The notes under the pieces were generated by a model. The model had not been told where the DNA came from and searched no databases. It saw nothing but the letters and a program-made list of their open reading frames with translations. A stretch of 37,377 bases of DNA, taken from contig NZ_VOHR01000006.1 of assembly GCF_009192725.1 (NCBI RefSeq), forward strand, positions 1-37,377, in the 5' to 3' direction. The DNA is from Segeticoccus rhizosphaerae. GTDB lineage: Bacteria > Actinomycetota > Actinomycetes > Actinomycetales > Dermatophilaceae. Numbering within the stretch: position 1 is the first letter of the stretch; each line of letters opens with the position of its first letter. Of the stretch, positions 24,449 through 34,625 are shown one piece after another. Made by a program: the position numbers and the translations under genes.

Positions 24449-25906
24449 TCAGGACTGGCTCGGGTGGGTGGCCCGCAGGCGCCCCTGCTCGACCAGTTCG
24501 TCGTGCGCGGCCACAAGGAGGTCGAGCACCTCCCAGGGGTCCGGGATCAGGGCCGGGCACGTCACGACTCCCACGTGCAGGCGTCCACGGTATCCCTGGA
24601 TGGTGATGTTCAGGCCGAGCCCGTCGCTGAGGGCCGGAAGGGGGTAGAGGCCCTCGATGGGCTGTCCGTGCAGGTGCAGCACCTCGCGCGTGCCGGGCAC
24701 GTTGGAGACCAGGACGTTGAACGGTAGGCGCACCCGGTCGGCGAGGCGGGCCGCCGCGACGACGCGCACGGCTCGTGTCGCCAGGGCCGGTGGCGCGAAG
24801 GAGGCGACGTCCTGCAGGGTGTCGGCACCGATCGCGCGGTGTGCCTTGGCCACCGCGGTGGTTTCGCGCACGCTGGTGAGCCGCACGAGCGGGTCGGCCA
24901 CGTCGGTCGGCAGGGGGCAGGTCATCAGGTCGATCTTGTTGCCGGTGACCTTGTCCTCGTCCGTGCGCACCGAGATCGGCACGAGCGCCCGGAGCGGCTC
25001 CTCGGGCAGGGCTTCGGCCCGCAGGAGCCATTCGCGCAGGGCCCCTGCGACCGTGCTGAGCAGCACGTCGTTGACCGTGGCACCCGCGGCCGTGCGCACG
25101 GCCTTGGAGTCGTCCAGCGACAACTCACCGAAGGCCCACGCCCGGTCGCGCGTGATGGCCTTGTTGAACGGGGTCCTCGGTGCGCTGATGCGTGGACGAG
25201 AGCGCACCGGCACGGCATCGCCGGCGGTCCCTGTGAGCCACTCGACCGTGCCGCTGGAAACGCGTGCGGCCGAGGTGATCGCGAGGGTGGGCACCTGTGG
25301 CAGCCGACCCATCAGTGCGGCCTCGAGCCGCAGCGCCGTGCCTGCGAGGTCGGCGACCCCGAGCATCCCCCGGGCGAGCATCTCGCCGGTGCCGGGCAGG
25401 GACGCAGGATGCCATGCGCCGTCGGACGACGGGTCGGTCTCCGGGGGCCGGTCGTCGAGCAGGGTGGTGAGCAGGTCCCTTCCGGCAATGCCGTCCACTG
25501 CGGCGTGGTGGATCTTGGTGATGACGGCGGTCTGGTCCGGTGCGGAGCCCTGCACGAGGTGGATCTCCCAGAGCGGGCGAGACCGGTCCAGCGGTTGCTC
25601 CGCGATCTGAGCCACCGTCCGGGCGAGCTCACGGCGCCACTCGTCACCGATGACGACCGACCCGAAGAGGTGCTGGGTGAGGTCGAAGTCCGGGTCGTCG
25701 ACCCACCAGGGCCGGTCGATGCCGAGCGGGACGTTGCGCAGCCGACGCCGCAGGATGGGGGCGAAGGGCAGTCGCGCCTCGACCAGGTCACGCAGCTCGT
25801 CGAGATCGAGCCGTCCGGCGACGAGGGCGGTGAGGCAGATGTGCCCGGCACCGTGGGGGCCGTCGAGGGCGAGGAACGATGCGTCGAGGCTGCTCAGTCG
25901 TTGCAT
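24449..25906 (-). CDS. Wax ester synthase/diacylglycerol acyltransferase (WS/DGAT), first copy
   Basis: Acyltransferase of 485 residues making wax esters and/or triacylglycerol from acyl-CoA. The family start MQRLSSLDASFLALDG is present. The catalytic HHxxxDG is HHAAVDG (133-139), PLWE follows at 111-114, and the late motifs include FNVLVSNVPG and GLGLNITIQGY. ATG 25906 has GAGG immediately before it, too close to be ideal; GTG 25912 two codons upstream is an alternative. It is next to a phasin-like gene on the same strand and 0.94 kb from a second WS/DGAT on the other strand. The tail ends shortly after the domain, unlike the second copy. Confidence 0.92.
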   Translation of the reverse strand: MQRLSSLDASFLALDGPHGAGHICLTALVAGRLDLDELRDLVEARLPFAPILRRRLRNVPLGIDRPWWVDDPDFDLTQHLFGSVVIGDEWRRELARTVAQIAEQPLDRSRPLWEIHLVQGSAPDQTAVITKIHHAAVDGIAGRDLLTTLLDDRPPETDPSSDGAWHPASLPGTGEMLARGMLGVADLAGTALRLEAALMGRLPQVPTLAITSAARVSSGTVEWLTGTAGDAVPVRSRPRISAPRTPFNKAITRDRAWAFGELSLDDSKAVRTAAGATVNDVLLSTVAGALREWLLRAEALPEEPLRALVPISVRTDEDKVTGNKIDLMTCPLPTDVADPLVRLTSVRETTAVAKAHRAIGADTLQDVASFAPPALATRAVRVVAAARLADRVRLPFNVLVSNVPGTREVLHLHGQPIEGLYPLPALSDGLGLNITIQGYRGRLHVGVVTCPALIPDPWEVLDLLVAAHDELVEQGRLRATHPSQS

Positions 25907-26123: not shown

Positions 26124-26480
26124 TCAATCCGTCGCGCTGCGGCTCCCCTTGGAGCTCGACTTCTGCGACTTCTGTGTCGTGTTCGACGTGGAGGCCGCTG
26201 GAGCGGGCGTGAAGAGATCGAGCAGACCGCTCTGGAAGGACTCGCGGGCCTGGGTCCAGTCCTTGCTGCTCGCGGTGGCGTAGCGCACGTAGTCGGACGG
26301 GCTGCCGACGAGCGAGGCAAGGGGCTTCAGGCCGGTCTGGAAGCGCTCCGGCGGCCTGGGGGCCTTGTCCAGGATCTCCGAGGCGCGACCGAGCAGGCCG
26401 AGGACGGCGTGCTGGCCCTTGTTCGCGGCCTCGACCTGACGCTCGTGAACCTTGGTGACGAGAGCGATGACGGTGGACAT
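26124..26480 (-). CDS. Phasin-like small protein, probable lipid inclusion-associated
   Basis: Protein of 118 residues. Residues about 1-95 are predicted helical and amphipathic with no transmembrane segment (for example VEAANKGQHAVLGLLGRAS), then a short Ala/Pro stretch. The last 22 residues are Ser/Thr/Lys/Gln-rich and disordered. Size, helical body and polar tail resemble phasins and the small lipid-droplet proteins of actinobacteria, and the flanking WS/DGAT genes support this. I do not recognise a specific family. ATG 26480 has AGGAGG four bases upstream. A strong promoter with direct repeats lies at 26536-26578. It reads toward the first WS/DGAT gene (217 bp gap), so co-transcription is possible. 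Confidence 0.65.
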   Translation of the reverse strand: MSTVIALVTKVHERQVEAANKGQHAVLGLLGRASEILDKAPRPPERFQTGLKPLASLVGSPSDYVRYATASSKDWTQARESFQSGLLDLFTPAPAASTSNTTQKSQKSSSKGSRSATD

Positions 26481-26844: not shown

Positions 26845-28530
26845 ATGCAGCAGCTCACCGCGATGGACGGGATGTTCTTCAGCGTCGACACCGCGACCTC
26901 GACCGGCGTGATGGGCGGGCTGATCATCTACGACGCCTTCGACGACCCGGCGGCCGGCCGAGCGGAGCGCATGATCGAGCGGATCACCGAACGGCTCGAC
27001 CAGATCCCGCCGTTCCGCCGGGTGCGCGCCAAGGTGCCGCTCGGGCTCGACAAGGAGTACTGGGCCGAGACCGAGGTCGACGTCGCTGCGCACGTCCGGA
27101 CGATCACCCTGGCCGAAGGCGGGACCGACCAGGACCTCGCGGCAGAGATCTCCCGCATCATGAGCATCCGCCTCGACCCCCACCGGCCCCTCTGGGAACT
27201 GTGGATCATCGAGGGCCTGCACGGCGGCCGTCTCGCACACCTGCTGCGGGTGCACCACGGCGCGGTCGACGGCGGGACCATCCCCACGATCCTCGATCTC
27301 CTGTCGGACCACCCGACGACGCCCGCCGACCCGGCCAGCGCGGCCCCGGGCCGGCGCGAGCCCTGGGGAGGGCCGGTCGAGATGCTGGCGCGGGGGGTCG
27401 TGGGGAGGGCCCTCAAGCCCGTCCAGTTCGTCGGGCTGCAGGCGCAGACGGTCAAGTACCTCGTGGGACGACGTTCCGAGGATGGCGTGATGGCCCTGCC
27501 CGCCTTCATCGCGCGGATGATCCCGGGCAAGGTGGGGGCACCGGTCCGGGGCGTCGTCAACCGGCGACAGCGTGCCAAGGGGCAGCCAGAGGTCCTCCCG
27601 GTGCTCCCGCAGGTCACGAAACCAGCCACCCCCTTCAACAGGACGATCACCGACGCCCGGACCTACGCCTTCTCGGACCTGTCGCTCGCCGACTTCAAGC
27701 GGGTCGGCAAGGCCTTCGACGGCACCATGAACGACGCCGTCGTCGCCGTCGTGGCGGGGGCTCTTCGGCGATGGATGGAGGAGCGGGGCGGCGCCCCTGA
27801 GGAGCCGCTGGTCGTGTGCATCCCCTACTCGTTGCGCACCGGGGAGGAGAAGGACCGGTGGGCCAACCACATCAGCATGTTCTTCGCGCCGCTCCCGACC
27901 CACCTCGCCGACCCGGTCGAGCGACTCAAGGCGGTCCACGGCGACCTCAAGGCGGCCAGGAGCAACTTCGACGCCCTGCCCACCGGACTGCTCCGTTCCG
28001 CAAGCCGTTTCATCCCGCAGTCGCTCTTCTGGGTCCACCAGCAGCTGCTGAGCCGCGCGCCCGACTGGGTGTCGGGCTCGATGTGGAACGTCGTGGTCTC
28101 CAACGTCCGCGGCCCGTCGCAGGTCGTGGAGGTCACCGGGGCCCGTATGGCGGGCTACTGGCCGGCCGCGTTCCTCACCACCGGCGTCGGACTCAACATC
28201 ACGCTGCAGAGCTACCTCGACCGGGTGGACTTCGGTTTCATGGGAGCCGGCGACCTCACCGGTGACCTCTGGGAGCTGCCCGGGCACATGAAGGACGCGC
28301 TCGAGGAGCTGATGGAGGCCGCCGACCGCGCCGAGTCCGCGGCGAAGTCCCCGGCCCCGAGAAAGTTGGCCGCAAAGAAGTCGCCGGCCCCGAGAAAGTC
28401 GGCGGCAAAGAAGTCGCCGGCCCCGAGAAAGTCGGCGGCAAAGAAGTCCCCGGCCCCGGGAAAGTCGGCCGCCAGGAAGTCCCCGGCAGCGAAGAAGTCG
28501 GCTGCCAAACCCACCCCCACTGACGACTGA
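26845..28530 (+). CDS. WS/DGAT, second copy, with Lys/Ala/Pro repeat tail
   Basis: Acyltransferase of 561 residues. The catalytic motif is HHGAVDG (137-143), PLWE lies at 115-118, and SNVRGPS and GVGLNITLQSY come late in the domain, which ends near residue 480. After a short helix, residues 501-555 are five tandem 11-residue units of the form KSPAPRKSAAK, then PTPTDD. Most WS/DGATs stop near 460-490 residues. The tail is strongly basic and disordered, like histone H1 or the heparin-binding tail of mycobacterial HBHA, and should bind DNA, polyphosphate or other polyanions (inference). ATG 26845 begins the conserved MQQLTAMDGMFF. The acyl-CoA synthetase follows after 41 bp, supplying acyl-CoA substrate. 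Confidence 0.92.
   Translation: MQQLTAMDGMFFSVDTATSTGVMGGLIIYDAFDDPAAGRAERMIERITERLDQIPPFRRVRAKVPLGLDKEYWAETEVDVAAHVRTITLAEGGTDQDLAAEISRIMSIRLDPHRPLWELWIIEGLHGGRLAHLLRVHHGAVDGGTIPTILDLLSDHPTTPADPASAAPGRREPWGGPVEMLARGVVGRALKPVQFVGLQAQTVKYLVGRRSEDGVMALPAFIARMIPGKVGAPVRGVVNRRQRAKGQPEVLPVLPQVTKPATPFNRTITDARTYAFSDLSLADFKRVGKAFDGTMNDAVVAVVAGALRRWMEERGGAPEEPLVVCIPYSLRTGEEKDRWANHISMFFAPLPTHLADPVERLKAVHGDLKAARSNFDALPTGLLRSASRFIPQSLFWVHQQLLSRAPDWVSGSMWNVVVSNVRGPSQVVEVTGARMAGYWPAAFLTTGVGLNITLQSYLDRVDFGFMGAGDLTGDLWELPGHMKDALEELMEAADRAESAAKSPAPRKLAAKKSPAPRKSAAKKSPAPRKSAAKKSPAPGKSAARKSPAAKKSAAKPTPTDD
28345..28509 (+). repeat. Five tandem 33-bp repeats encoding the basic tail
   Basis: Five in-frame 33-bp units encode KSPAPRK(L/S)AAK, twice KSPAPRKSAAK, KSPAPGKSAAR and KSPAAKKSAAK. 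The central units are nearly identical at the DNA level, while the last two diverge. Copy number is therefore likely to vary among strains by slippage or recombination. Confidence 0.9.
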
Positions 28531-28571: not shown

Positions 28572-30098
28572 GTGTCGTTCAACCTCTCAGTCATCGTTCG
28601 CGAGTCGGCGCAGTCCGGCCCCGACCGCCCGGCCATCATCCACCGTGGTGGCACCATCTCCCACCGTCAGCTCGACGAGTGGAGCGACCGCGTCGCGAGG
28701 GGGCTCGTGCGACTGGGGGTCACGCCGGGAGACAGCGTCGGGGTCCAGCTGCCCAACGTTCCCGAGTTCGCGGCGGTCTTCTACGGCGTCCTCAAGGCCG
28801 GGGCTGTCGCCATCCCGATGAACGTCCTCAACAAGGGCCCGGAGATCGCCTACTTCCTGAAGAACTCTCAGGCAAATCTGTTGATCTCGGCGGCGGGTGT
28901 CGCGAGCGAGGCTGCCCGGGGCGTGAACGAAGCCGGCGCGGAACACCTGTTCATCGTCGGCGACGCCCAGCTGCCCGCCTGTGCGCGGCGCTTCGAGGAG
29001 CTCACCGCCGGTGGTCAGGAGATCCCCGCGCCATTCGTCCAGCGACAGCCCTCTGACACGGCCGTCCTGCTCTACACGTCGGGCACCACCGGTCACCCCA
29101 AGGGGGTCCAGCTGACCCACTTCCAGCTCCTGATGAACGCCGAGGCACACGTCGAGGCCTTCGAGATGGACCGCGACAGCGTCACCATCGCGGTCATGCC
29201 GCTGTTCCACGCTCTCGGCCTGTCGGGCCTGCTCAACGCCACTCTGCGCGCTGGCGGCGCAGTGGTGCTCCTGGAGAAGTTCAAGCCGCTCGACGTCCTG
29301 CAGGCGATCCAGGACCACCACGCCACGATCTTGCACGGCGTCCCGACGATGTACCACGCGATCGAGCACCAGCCGGAGCGGTCCGACTACGACGTCTCCT
29401 CGCTGCGCTACTGCGGTTCCGCGGGCGCGCCCATCGCCGCAGAGCTGCTGGACACCTTCGAGCGCGAGATGGGTGTGCAGATCCTCGAGATGTACGGACT
29501 GACCGAGAGCGGACCACTGGCCAGCTACAACCGACCGGACCACCGCAAGCCGTACAGCATCGGCACGCCCATCTGGGGCACCGAGATGCAGGTTTGGGAC
29601 GACGAGAACACCGAGCTGCCGGCGGGCCGCGACCACGTCGGCGAGCTGGTGATCCGCGGACACAACACCATGGGCGGCTACCTGGACAACCCGGAGGCGA
29701 CCGAGCAGGCCTTCGCCGGCGGCTGGCTGCACAGTGGCGACCTGGGTTACCGCGACGAGGACGGCTTCTTCTTCATCGTGGACCGCAAGAAGGAGATGAT
29801 CATCCGGGGCGGCTACAACGTCTACCCGCGGGAGGTCGAGGAGGTGCTCTACCAGCACCCCGCGATCTTCGAGGCGGCGGTCGTCGGCCTGCCCGACGAC
29901 CGGCTCGGCGAGGAGGTCGGAGCCTTCGTGTCGCTCAAGATCGGCGCCTCGGCCGAGACCGAGGAGATCATCGACTTCGTCAAGGACCGTGTGGCCGCCT
30001 ACAAGTACCCGAGGACGGTCGAGATCCTCCCCGACCTGCCCAAGAGCCCCACCGGCAAGATCCTCAAGCGCCAGCTGGTGCCTGGGCGCAAGGCCTGA
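28572..30098 (+). CDS. Long-chain fatty acid-CoA ligase (acyl-CoA synthetase)
   Basis: Adenylate-forming enzyme of 508 residues that activates fatty acids with ATP and CoA. Motifs in order: P-loop LLYTSGTTGHPKG (about 165-177), YGLTESGP near 307, the hinge GDLGYRDEDGFFFIVDRKKE, IIRGGYNVYPREVEE, and the C-terminal catalytic Lys in SPTGKILKRQL. GTG 28572 has AGGAG at five bases. It is 41 bp downstream of the second WS/DGAT and probably in its operon, feeding acyl-CoA into wax ester or triacylglycerol synthesis, or into the beta-oxidation-like enzymes at 19403-23579. Chain-length preference cannot be read. Confidence 0.9.
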   Translation: MSFNLSVIVRESAQSGPDRPAIIHRGGTISHRQLDEWSDRVARGLVRLGVTPGDSVGVQLPNVPEFAAVFYGVLKAGAVAIPMNVLNKGPEIAYFLKNSQANLLISAAGVASEAARGVNEAGAEHLFIVGDAQLPACARRFEELTAGGQEIPAPFVQRQPSDTAVLLYTSGTTGHPKGVQLTHFQLLMNAEAHVEAFEMDRDSVTIAVMPLFHALGLSGLLNATLRAGGAVVLLEKFKPLDVLQAIQDHHATILHGVPTMYHAIEHQPERSDYDVSSLRYCGSAGAPIAAELLDTFEREMGVQILEMYGLTESGPLASYNRPDHRKPYSIGTPIWGTEMQVWDDENTELPAGRDHVGELVIRGHNTMGGYLDNPEATEQAFAGGWLHSGDLGYRDEDGFFFIVDRKKEMIIRGGYNVYPREVEEVLYQHPAIFEAAVVGLPDDRLGEEVGAFVSLKIGASAETEEIIDFVKDRVAAYKYPRTVEILPDLPKSPTGKILKRQLVPGRKA

Positions 30099-34070: not shown

Positions 34071-34625
34071 ATGACCGATGTGCCGAACCGACCCCCCGAC
34101 CCGCCGGATGAGCCGGCAGCGGGTGACCCTTACTCCCAGGGCTATCCGCCGGCCCAGGGCCACCCGCCCGTTCCGGCCTACCCAACGGCCCAGGGCTACC
34201 CGCCCCCGCCGCCCGGCTACGGCGCGGCGCCGGTCATGCCCTCGGGCTACGCGGCGCCGTCCGGCCAGGTGGGACACGTGCGGGGCACCGGCCTGTGCAT
34301 CCTGCTGTGCTTCGTCACCCTCGGCATCTACAGCCTCTACTGGTTCTACGTCACCCACGAGGAGATGAAGCGGCACAGCGGCCAGGGCCTCGGCGGCCCG
34401 CTCGCCCTCGTCATCGCGTTCTTCATCGGCATCGTGATGCCCTACCTCACCTCCAACGAGGTCGGCGAGCTCTACGCCCGCCGCGGGCAGCACCCGCCGG
34501 TGAGCGGTTTGACCGGCCTCTGGTACTTCCCCGGTGTGTTCCTCGTGATCGGTCCGATCGTCTGGTTCGTCAAGACCAACAAGGCCCTCAACGCCTACTG
34601 GCGATCGCTGGGGGCCGTGGGCTGA
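34071..34625 (+). CDS. DUF4234 membrane protein with Pro/Gly/Tyr-rich N-terminus
   Basis: Protein of 184 residues. Residues 1-65 are disordered, rich in Pro, Gly and Tyr with repeated QGYPP/QGHPP-type units. The rest is a DUF4234-like domain: RGTGLCILLCFVTLGIYSLYWFY (first helix), a second helix near LALVIAFFIGIVMPYL, and a third ending WFVKTNKALNAYW. The function of the domain is unknown. Pro/Tyr-rich cytoplasmic tails of this sort are common on actinobacterial membrane proteins and may mediate self-association (inference). It is followed by a promoter/hairpin region and mrpA. Confidence 0.85.
   Translation: MTDVPNRPPDPPDEPAAGDPYSQGYPPAQGHPPVPAYPTAQGYPPPPPGYGAAPVMPSGYAAPSGQVGHVRGTGLCILLCFVTLGIYSLYWFYVTHEEMKRHSGQGLGGPLALVIAFFIGIVMPYLTSNEVGELYARRGQHPPVSGLTGLWYFPGVFLVIGPIVWFVKTNKALNAYWRSLGAVG

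Follow-up and report, generated by a model that had tools for sequence, protein, structure and literature searches.

Lys-rich repeat tails recur on actinobacterial WS/DGATs and may link lipid inclusions to the nucleoid

Introduction

Why would a lipid-synthesising enzyme end in a long, strongly basic repeat? The question is raised by a 37,377-nt stretch of DNA (hereafter, the window), which holds two genes for wax ester synthase/acyl-CoA:diacylglycerol acyltransferase (WS/DGAT). The second of them (WS/DGAT 2; 26845..28530, plus strand; 561 aa), recognized by Pfam, TIGR02946 and structure matches, carries a tail of this kind.

Lys-rich tails are known from several proteins of storage inclusions. 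MLDS links Rhodococcus droplets to the genome; the lysines of its C-terminal PAKKA units bind DNA without sequence specificity, and their exchange for glutamate, or their deletion, abolishes binding (PMC5504291). The tail of PhaF organises PHA granules and that of AlgP polyP granules (PMC3574117, PMC9239181), the KPAA tail of the latter being needed for granule spacing (PMC9239181). HBHA depends on its Lys-rich domain both to bind phosphoinositides and to form inclusions: derivatives devoid of the Lys-rich repeats neither bind phosphoinositides nor restore inclusions (PMC6176652). Here, we ask what such a tail might do on the TAG-synthesising enzyme itself.

Results

The tail follows a complete WS/DGAT

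By all features tested, WS/DGAT 2 is at the sequence level a plain WS/DGAT. Both family domains are complete, in the right order and above curated cut-offs, namely PF03007 (WS_DGAT_cat) at residues 4-299 (E 5.8e-47) and PF06974 (WS_DGAT_C) at residues 339-489 (E 1.5e-28), and the protein scores 363.6 bits against TIGR02946 (cut-off 309.95). The HHxxxDG active-site motif reads HHGAVDG (residues 137-143; 27253..27273, plus strand), and its H137, H138, D142 and G143 are invariant in our alignment (A1). An AlphaFold2 model, built from an 11-sequence alignment, matched best the solved WS/DGATs 6chj (Marinobacter) and 7nxg (Acinetobacter baylyi), with which the protein shares the two-domain fold, the HHxxxDG motif and the full-length family match. 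As both Pfam domains are complete before the tail begins, the latter lies wholly outside the enzyme. What sets WS/DGAT 2 apart from typical family members, which end a median of 9 residues past the C domain, is an added, predicted disordered tail of 61 residues with a net charge of +17.

The last ordered element of the model is an amphipathic helix (residues 475-501; 28267..28347, plus strand), modelled with a pLDDT of about 90-97 except for its final residues and followed directly by the tail. With a hydrophobic moment of 0.56, the highest-scoring 18-residue window of this helix ranks in the protein's top 1%. The motif by which mycobacterial Tgs1 is proposed to bind inclusions is likewise a C-terminal amphipathic helix, and Dgat/Tgs enzymes occur on inclusions and at the membrane, including plasma-membrane microdomains (PMC10699116). 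The helix of WS/DGAT 2 is thus a putative contact to lipid inclusions or the membrane, so the modelled protein would run from catalytic domain through a lipid-facing helix to the basic tail.

A 33-bp tandem repeat encodes the disordered, basic tail

The tail (28345..28527, plus strand) comprises five tandem 33-bp units of the KSPAPRKSAAK type (28345..28509; unit starts at 28345, 28378, 28411, 28444 and 28477), a number to be read with the source assembly in mind, as it consists of 761 contigs, and the copy number of tandem repeats can come out wrong in an assembly of this kind. TRF reported the array at 28344-28502 (period 33, 4.8 copies) with a score of 234; the second-best array elsewhere in the window scored 77. 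In order, the units read KSPAPRKLAAK, KSPAPRKSAAK, KSPAPRKSAAK, KSPAPGKSAAR and KSPAAKKSAAK, followed by KPTPTDD and the stop codon. The original prediction of five 11-residue units encoded by 33-bp tandem repeats is therefore borne out by both TRF and translation.

Among the 61 residues are 15 Lys, 4 Arg, 16 Ala, 11 Pro, 9 Ser and 2 Asp. The net charge of +17 compares with -5 for the first 500 residues, and the isoelectric point is 11.7 for the tail, 6.2 for the first 500 residues and 9.6 for the whole protein. Residues 508-561 have a pLDDT below 50, from which we predict disorder. The reading frame of the tail is continuous with that of the enzyme and rich in AAG, a codon otherwise uncommon in this high-GC genome, which rules out a wrong-frame or non-coding artefact. 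Differences among the units are evenly split between synonymous and non-synonymous changes (6:6, p 0.05-0.10), so that selection on the protein is not clearly shown. The sole Pfam match within the tail, to the chlamydial histone-H1-like family HC2, reached 21.3 bits, below the gathering cut-off of 40; we read it as reflecting composition rather than homology. Accordingly, membership of the histone H1/HC2 family was rejected, and the likeness to histone H1 and HBHA that had been predicted holds for composition. Opposite the tail lies a 102-aa antisense ORF with DFFAADFLGAG repeats (28212-28520, minus strand), most likely a mere mirror of the tail repeat.

The locus points to neutral lipid as the likely inclusion

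Immediately downstream of WS/DGAT 2, on the same strand, lies a gene for a FadD-type fatty-acyl-CoA synthetase (28572..30098, plus strand; PF00501 and PF13193; 475 bits against PRK06187, just under its cut-off of 476), which likely supplies substrate to WS/DGAT 2. An acyl-CoA-synthetase-like gene also adjoins three other tailed WS/DGATs (L190, L191, L196) and the tail-less syntenic relative described below (L202). WS/DGAT 1 (24449..25906, minus strand; PF03007/PF06974), with a probable ATG start near 25906 within a longest ORF that begins at 26320, carries no tail and continues past its domain with QGRLRATHPSQS.

Between the two WS/DGAT genes, upstream of the first and divergent from the second, lies a gene for a phasin-like small protein (26124..26480, minus strand) of no named family. 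Its low-confidence, single-sequence model is all-helical with a disordered tail, and the protein has a short basic C-terminus ending in STSNTTQKSQKSSSKGSRSATD. It had no Pfam match and no match across the other 185 family genomes searched, and a fold search with the weak model returned nothing significant. We note it as a candidate new lipid-inclusion coat protein. PhaC_N had no match in the window's genome, which is 95% complete; a PHA granule context was therefore dropped, leaving neutral lipid as the likely inclusion. Elsewhere in the window, an 18-bp tandem repeat (34135-34204; CCCAGGGCTACCCGCCGG, PQGYPP-type units) lies within an ORF (34071-34625) and encodes Pro/Gly/Tyr-rich low complexity.

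Close relatives differ in the presence of a tail

In a search of 186 genomes from the window's own family, WS/DGAT 2 was matched most closely at 50% and 46% identity (G171). The nearest syntenic relative (L051/L202; 50% identical), from another genus, has kept the neighbourhood—an acyl-CoA synthetase and an IclR-like regulator—and ends 14 residues past the domain, without a tail. Since the nearest relatives are tail-less, a tail ancestral to this orthologue group is unsupported. No further member of the window's genus was among the family genomes listed. Elsewhere in the family, a WS/DGAT from another genus (G076) bears a 94-residue Lys/Ala tail with a net charge of +26, and WS/DGATs of two further genera have Arg-rich tails. 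Searching the last 126 residues across the order gave five other low-complexity matches. Absence of the tail from all close homologues, combined with a lack of DNA or polyanion binding, had been named beforehand as speaking against a function: the tail is indeed absent from the nearest syntenic relative, while equivalents occur on many actinobacterial WS/DGATs.

Basic tails recur on WS/DGATs and turn over quickly

To place the tail among its kind, we drew a phylum-wide sample of 110 WS/DGAT C-termini, taken in order of domain score without regard to the tail. Sequence past the C domain had a median length of 9 residues, in keeping with the earlier remark that the C-terminus of WS/DGAT 2 is unusually long; it reached at least 40 residues in 13/110, 11 of these 13 tails being positively charged. 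Applying a strict rule (a 36-residue window with at least 7 Lys and a net charge of at least +8, mostly KRAPSTG), we found such K-tails on 5/110 sampled WS/DGATs versus 1/602 predicted genes sampled from two genomes that own tailed WS/DGATs (Fisher p 4e-4, an indicative value given crude gene calls and the presence of paralogues of one genome among the WS/DGATs). Within the family of G911, a different one from that of the window, 10/28 WS/DGATs carried a strict K-tail (p about 6e-14 when set against these 602 genes), both figures coming from a family picked for having tails. The proposed search of homologues for Lys/Pro/Ala tails has thus shown that WS/DGATs carry them repeatedly and far more often than background genes do, and that the tail of WS/DGAT 2 is no unique feature.

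The K-tail label, mapped onto a mixed tree comprising 77 WS/DGATs, required 5 changes in labelled groups, 4 of them forced by starred branches, and 6 changes over all rows; a tree of the G911 family required 7, of which 5 were forced. Both trees were quick ones with SH-aLRT support only, and such counts cannot separate gains from losses; with several changes forced, a single origin of all WS/DGAT K-tails is unsupported. Among G911-family orthologues 64-85% identical to one another, the tail varied between a single residue and PKRPAKKAPTKKAPAEKKAAAKKAPAKA-like repeats, and two tails of at least 20 residues were acidic. Counting tails of at least 20 residues with a stop codon in this family, 19/22 had a net charge of +6 or more and 2/22 were negative. 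The longest tail seen, on a WS/DGAT of the same family (L312), spans 181 residues with a net charge of +34. WS/DGAT tails thus appear, from these comparisons, to be recurrent, biased to basic and short-lived; any expectation of a stable feature gives way to one that is absent from the syntenic relative and flips among near orthologues.

We found no description of a tailed WS/DGAT in the openly available literature, a scope that does not prove novelty. The tailed form of this known enzyme family is real, recurrent and apparently undescribed.

Other proteins with Lys-rich tails bind nucleic acid

We surveyed the window's genome by tail searches and by sampling about 300 kb, on which 224 genes were predicted. 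Besides WS/DGAT 2, comparable tails turned up on just two proteins, HU (L072, contig C209) and Ku (L254, contig C759). Ku (L254:4653-5780, minus strand) was the only other strict K-tail in the 224 sampled genes, on a contig sampled owing to its tail match; the HU tail came from the search and not from the gene sample, and its contig ends inside the Lys-rich tail repeats. A tail common on unrelated proteins of this genome, which had been raised as evidence against a function, is rejected on this survey: such tails are rare and otherwise sit on DNA-binding HU and Ku. Like WS/DGAT 2, both proteins extend a folded domain with a C-terminal tail rich in Lys and Ala, but there the folded domain itself binds DNA, and the repeat units are not identical. 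In G911, the sole background K-tail belongs to an NYN-ribonuclease/S1 protein (L222:9975-11615, minus strand) with a long KKKAPAKKAPAKK repeat tail. HU, Ku and the NYN-ribonuclease/S1 protein are all nucleic-acid binders, which we regard as the best circumstantial evidence for nucleic acid as the ligand of the WS/DGAT tail.

Discussion

The reading we favour, at a probability of roughly 0.5, is by analogy that of a fused polyanion-binding tether, through which the TAG synthase, together with the lipid inclusion growing from it, would stay attached to the nucleoid. An ordinary WS/DGAT would have acquired its disordered, Lys-rich, histone-H1/HBHA-like tail as a 33-bp unit expanded. With the catalytic domain and helix seated on the plasma membrane or a nascent TAG inclusion, the tail would extend into the cytoplasm and bind nucleic acid without specificity, the likeliest target being nucleoid DNA. 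One polypeptide would then do the job of MLDS on Rhodococcus lipid droplets or PhaF on PHA granules, keeping the inclusion on the nucleoid so that it is shared out evenly when the cell divides, and possibly also protecting DNA under starvation. The succession of a complete enzyme, an amphipathic helix and a +17 tail supports this reading, as do the recurrence and basic bias of the tails and the precedent of MLDS, PhaF and AlgP.

The tail may work like those of HBHA and MLDS, of phasins or of histone H1, if such analogies extend to function, although WS/DGAT 2 belongs to none of these groups. It shares with MLDS of Rhodococcus jostii RHA1 a Lys-rich C-terminal repeat tail behind a droplet-targeting part (PMC5504291), and with mycobacterial HBHA, which has a role in lipid inclusions, C-terminal alanine/lysine/proline repeats (PMC6176652); the Lys/Ala/Pro motif is similar but not identical. 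MLDS is a structural droplet protein with a PAKKA unit, whereas WS/DGAT 2 is a TAG-synthesising enzyme with a KSPAPRKSAAK unit, and droplet-DNA tethering, shown for MLDS, is for WS/DGAT 2 only inferred. HBHA combines a short N-terminal hydrophobic sequence and a coiled coil with a surface adhesin role; the N-terminal 489 residues of WS/DGAT 2 are instead those of the enzyme, with no non-enzymatic lipid-binding or coiled-coil part, and an assignment to HBHA/MLDS was rejected. In Pseudomonas PhaF and AlgP, a histone-H1-like disordered tail likewise positions storage granules with respect to the nucleoid (PMC3574117, PMC9239181), but on a phasin or helical N-terminus without enzyme and for PHA or polyP granules. 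WS/DGAT 2 has no phasin domain, which, along with the missing PhaC_N match in the 95% complete genome, excludes a PhaF-type phasin.

Several observations weigh against a tether. Basic tails are equally able to bind anionic phospholipid, as HBHA illustrates (PMC6176652), and the main rival reading, to which we give perhaps one chance in four, makes the tail an electrostatic anchor to such lipids with no part for DNA. Such an anchor would make the helix and the catalytic domain dock more firmly at the sites of TAG synthesis, be it the inner plasma membrane or the phospholipid monolayer of the inclusion. This fits the loss of phosphoinositide binding and inclusion restoration by HBHA without its Lys-rich repeats (PMC6176652), the presence of Dgat/Tgs enzymes at plasma-membrane microdomains (PMC10699116) and the start of the tail at the membrane surface, directly after the amphipathic helix. 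Yet 61 flexible residues exceed the need for local docking, most WS/DGATs manage without a tail, and the other K-tail carriers in the surveyed genomes are nucleic-acid-binding proteins. We consider it improbable, though well short of negligible, that the tail is instead a near-neutral low-complexity extension with no dedicated ligand, arisen when a GC-rich repeat slipped in replication once the original stop had been lost, and tolerated at an exposed C-terminus. Its strong basic, Lys-rich bias despite the GC-rich codon use of these lineages, the enrichment on WS/DGATs over other genes and the repeated independent appearance on the mixed tree speak against this, whereas the 33-bp tandem repeats, the absence from the nearest relatives, the rapid turnover among orthologues and the weak sign of selection between units speak for it. 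As tails come and go, and two are acidic, tolerance of low complexity at the C-terminus accounts for some of the pattern; the short end of the syntenic relative and the 6:6 unit differences also count against the tether. Binding of polyphosphate, which would couple carbon storage inclusions to polyP granules, strikes us as a long shot: AlgP needs its KPAA tail for polyP granule spacing (PMC9239181), but that tail is also thought to work through DNA, and while the genome may belong with actinobacteria some of which accumulate polyP, the window showed no link to polyP genes.

Returning to the nucleoid tether, the fast turnover of the tails suggests that their role is probably modulatory and redundant rather than essential for TAG synthesis. 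Whether actinobacterial TAG synthases have repeatedly evolved nucleoid-binding tails, such that the enzyme itself places and partitions inclusions on the chromosome, is a tentative generalization that we hold at somewhat less than even odds. The positioning and inheritance of bacterial lipid inclusions are known in few systems, where they proceed via dedicated structural proteins. If the synthase carries the tether, positioning would begin where lipid is made, and simple repeat expansion could suffice for its gain or loss. With naturally tailed and tail-less orthologues available at 64-85% identity within one family, the idea is directly testable, and WS/DGAT C-termini should not be assumed trimmable in oil-production engineering. 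If true, the tail would be an evolvable module for organelle positioning that has arisen recurrently on a metabolic enzyme.
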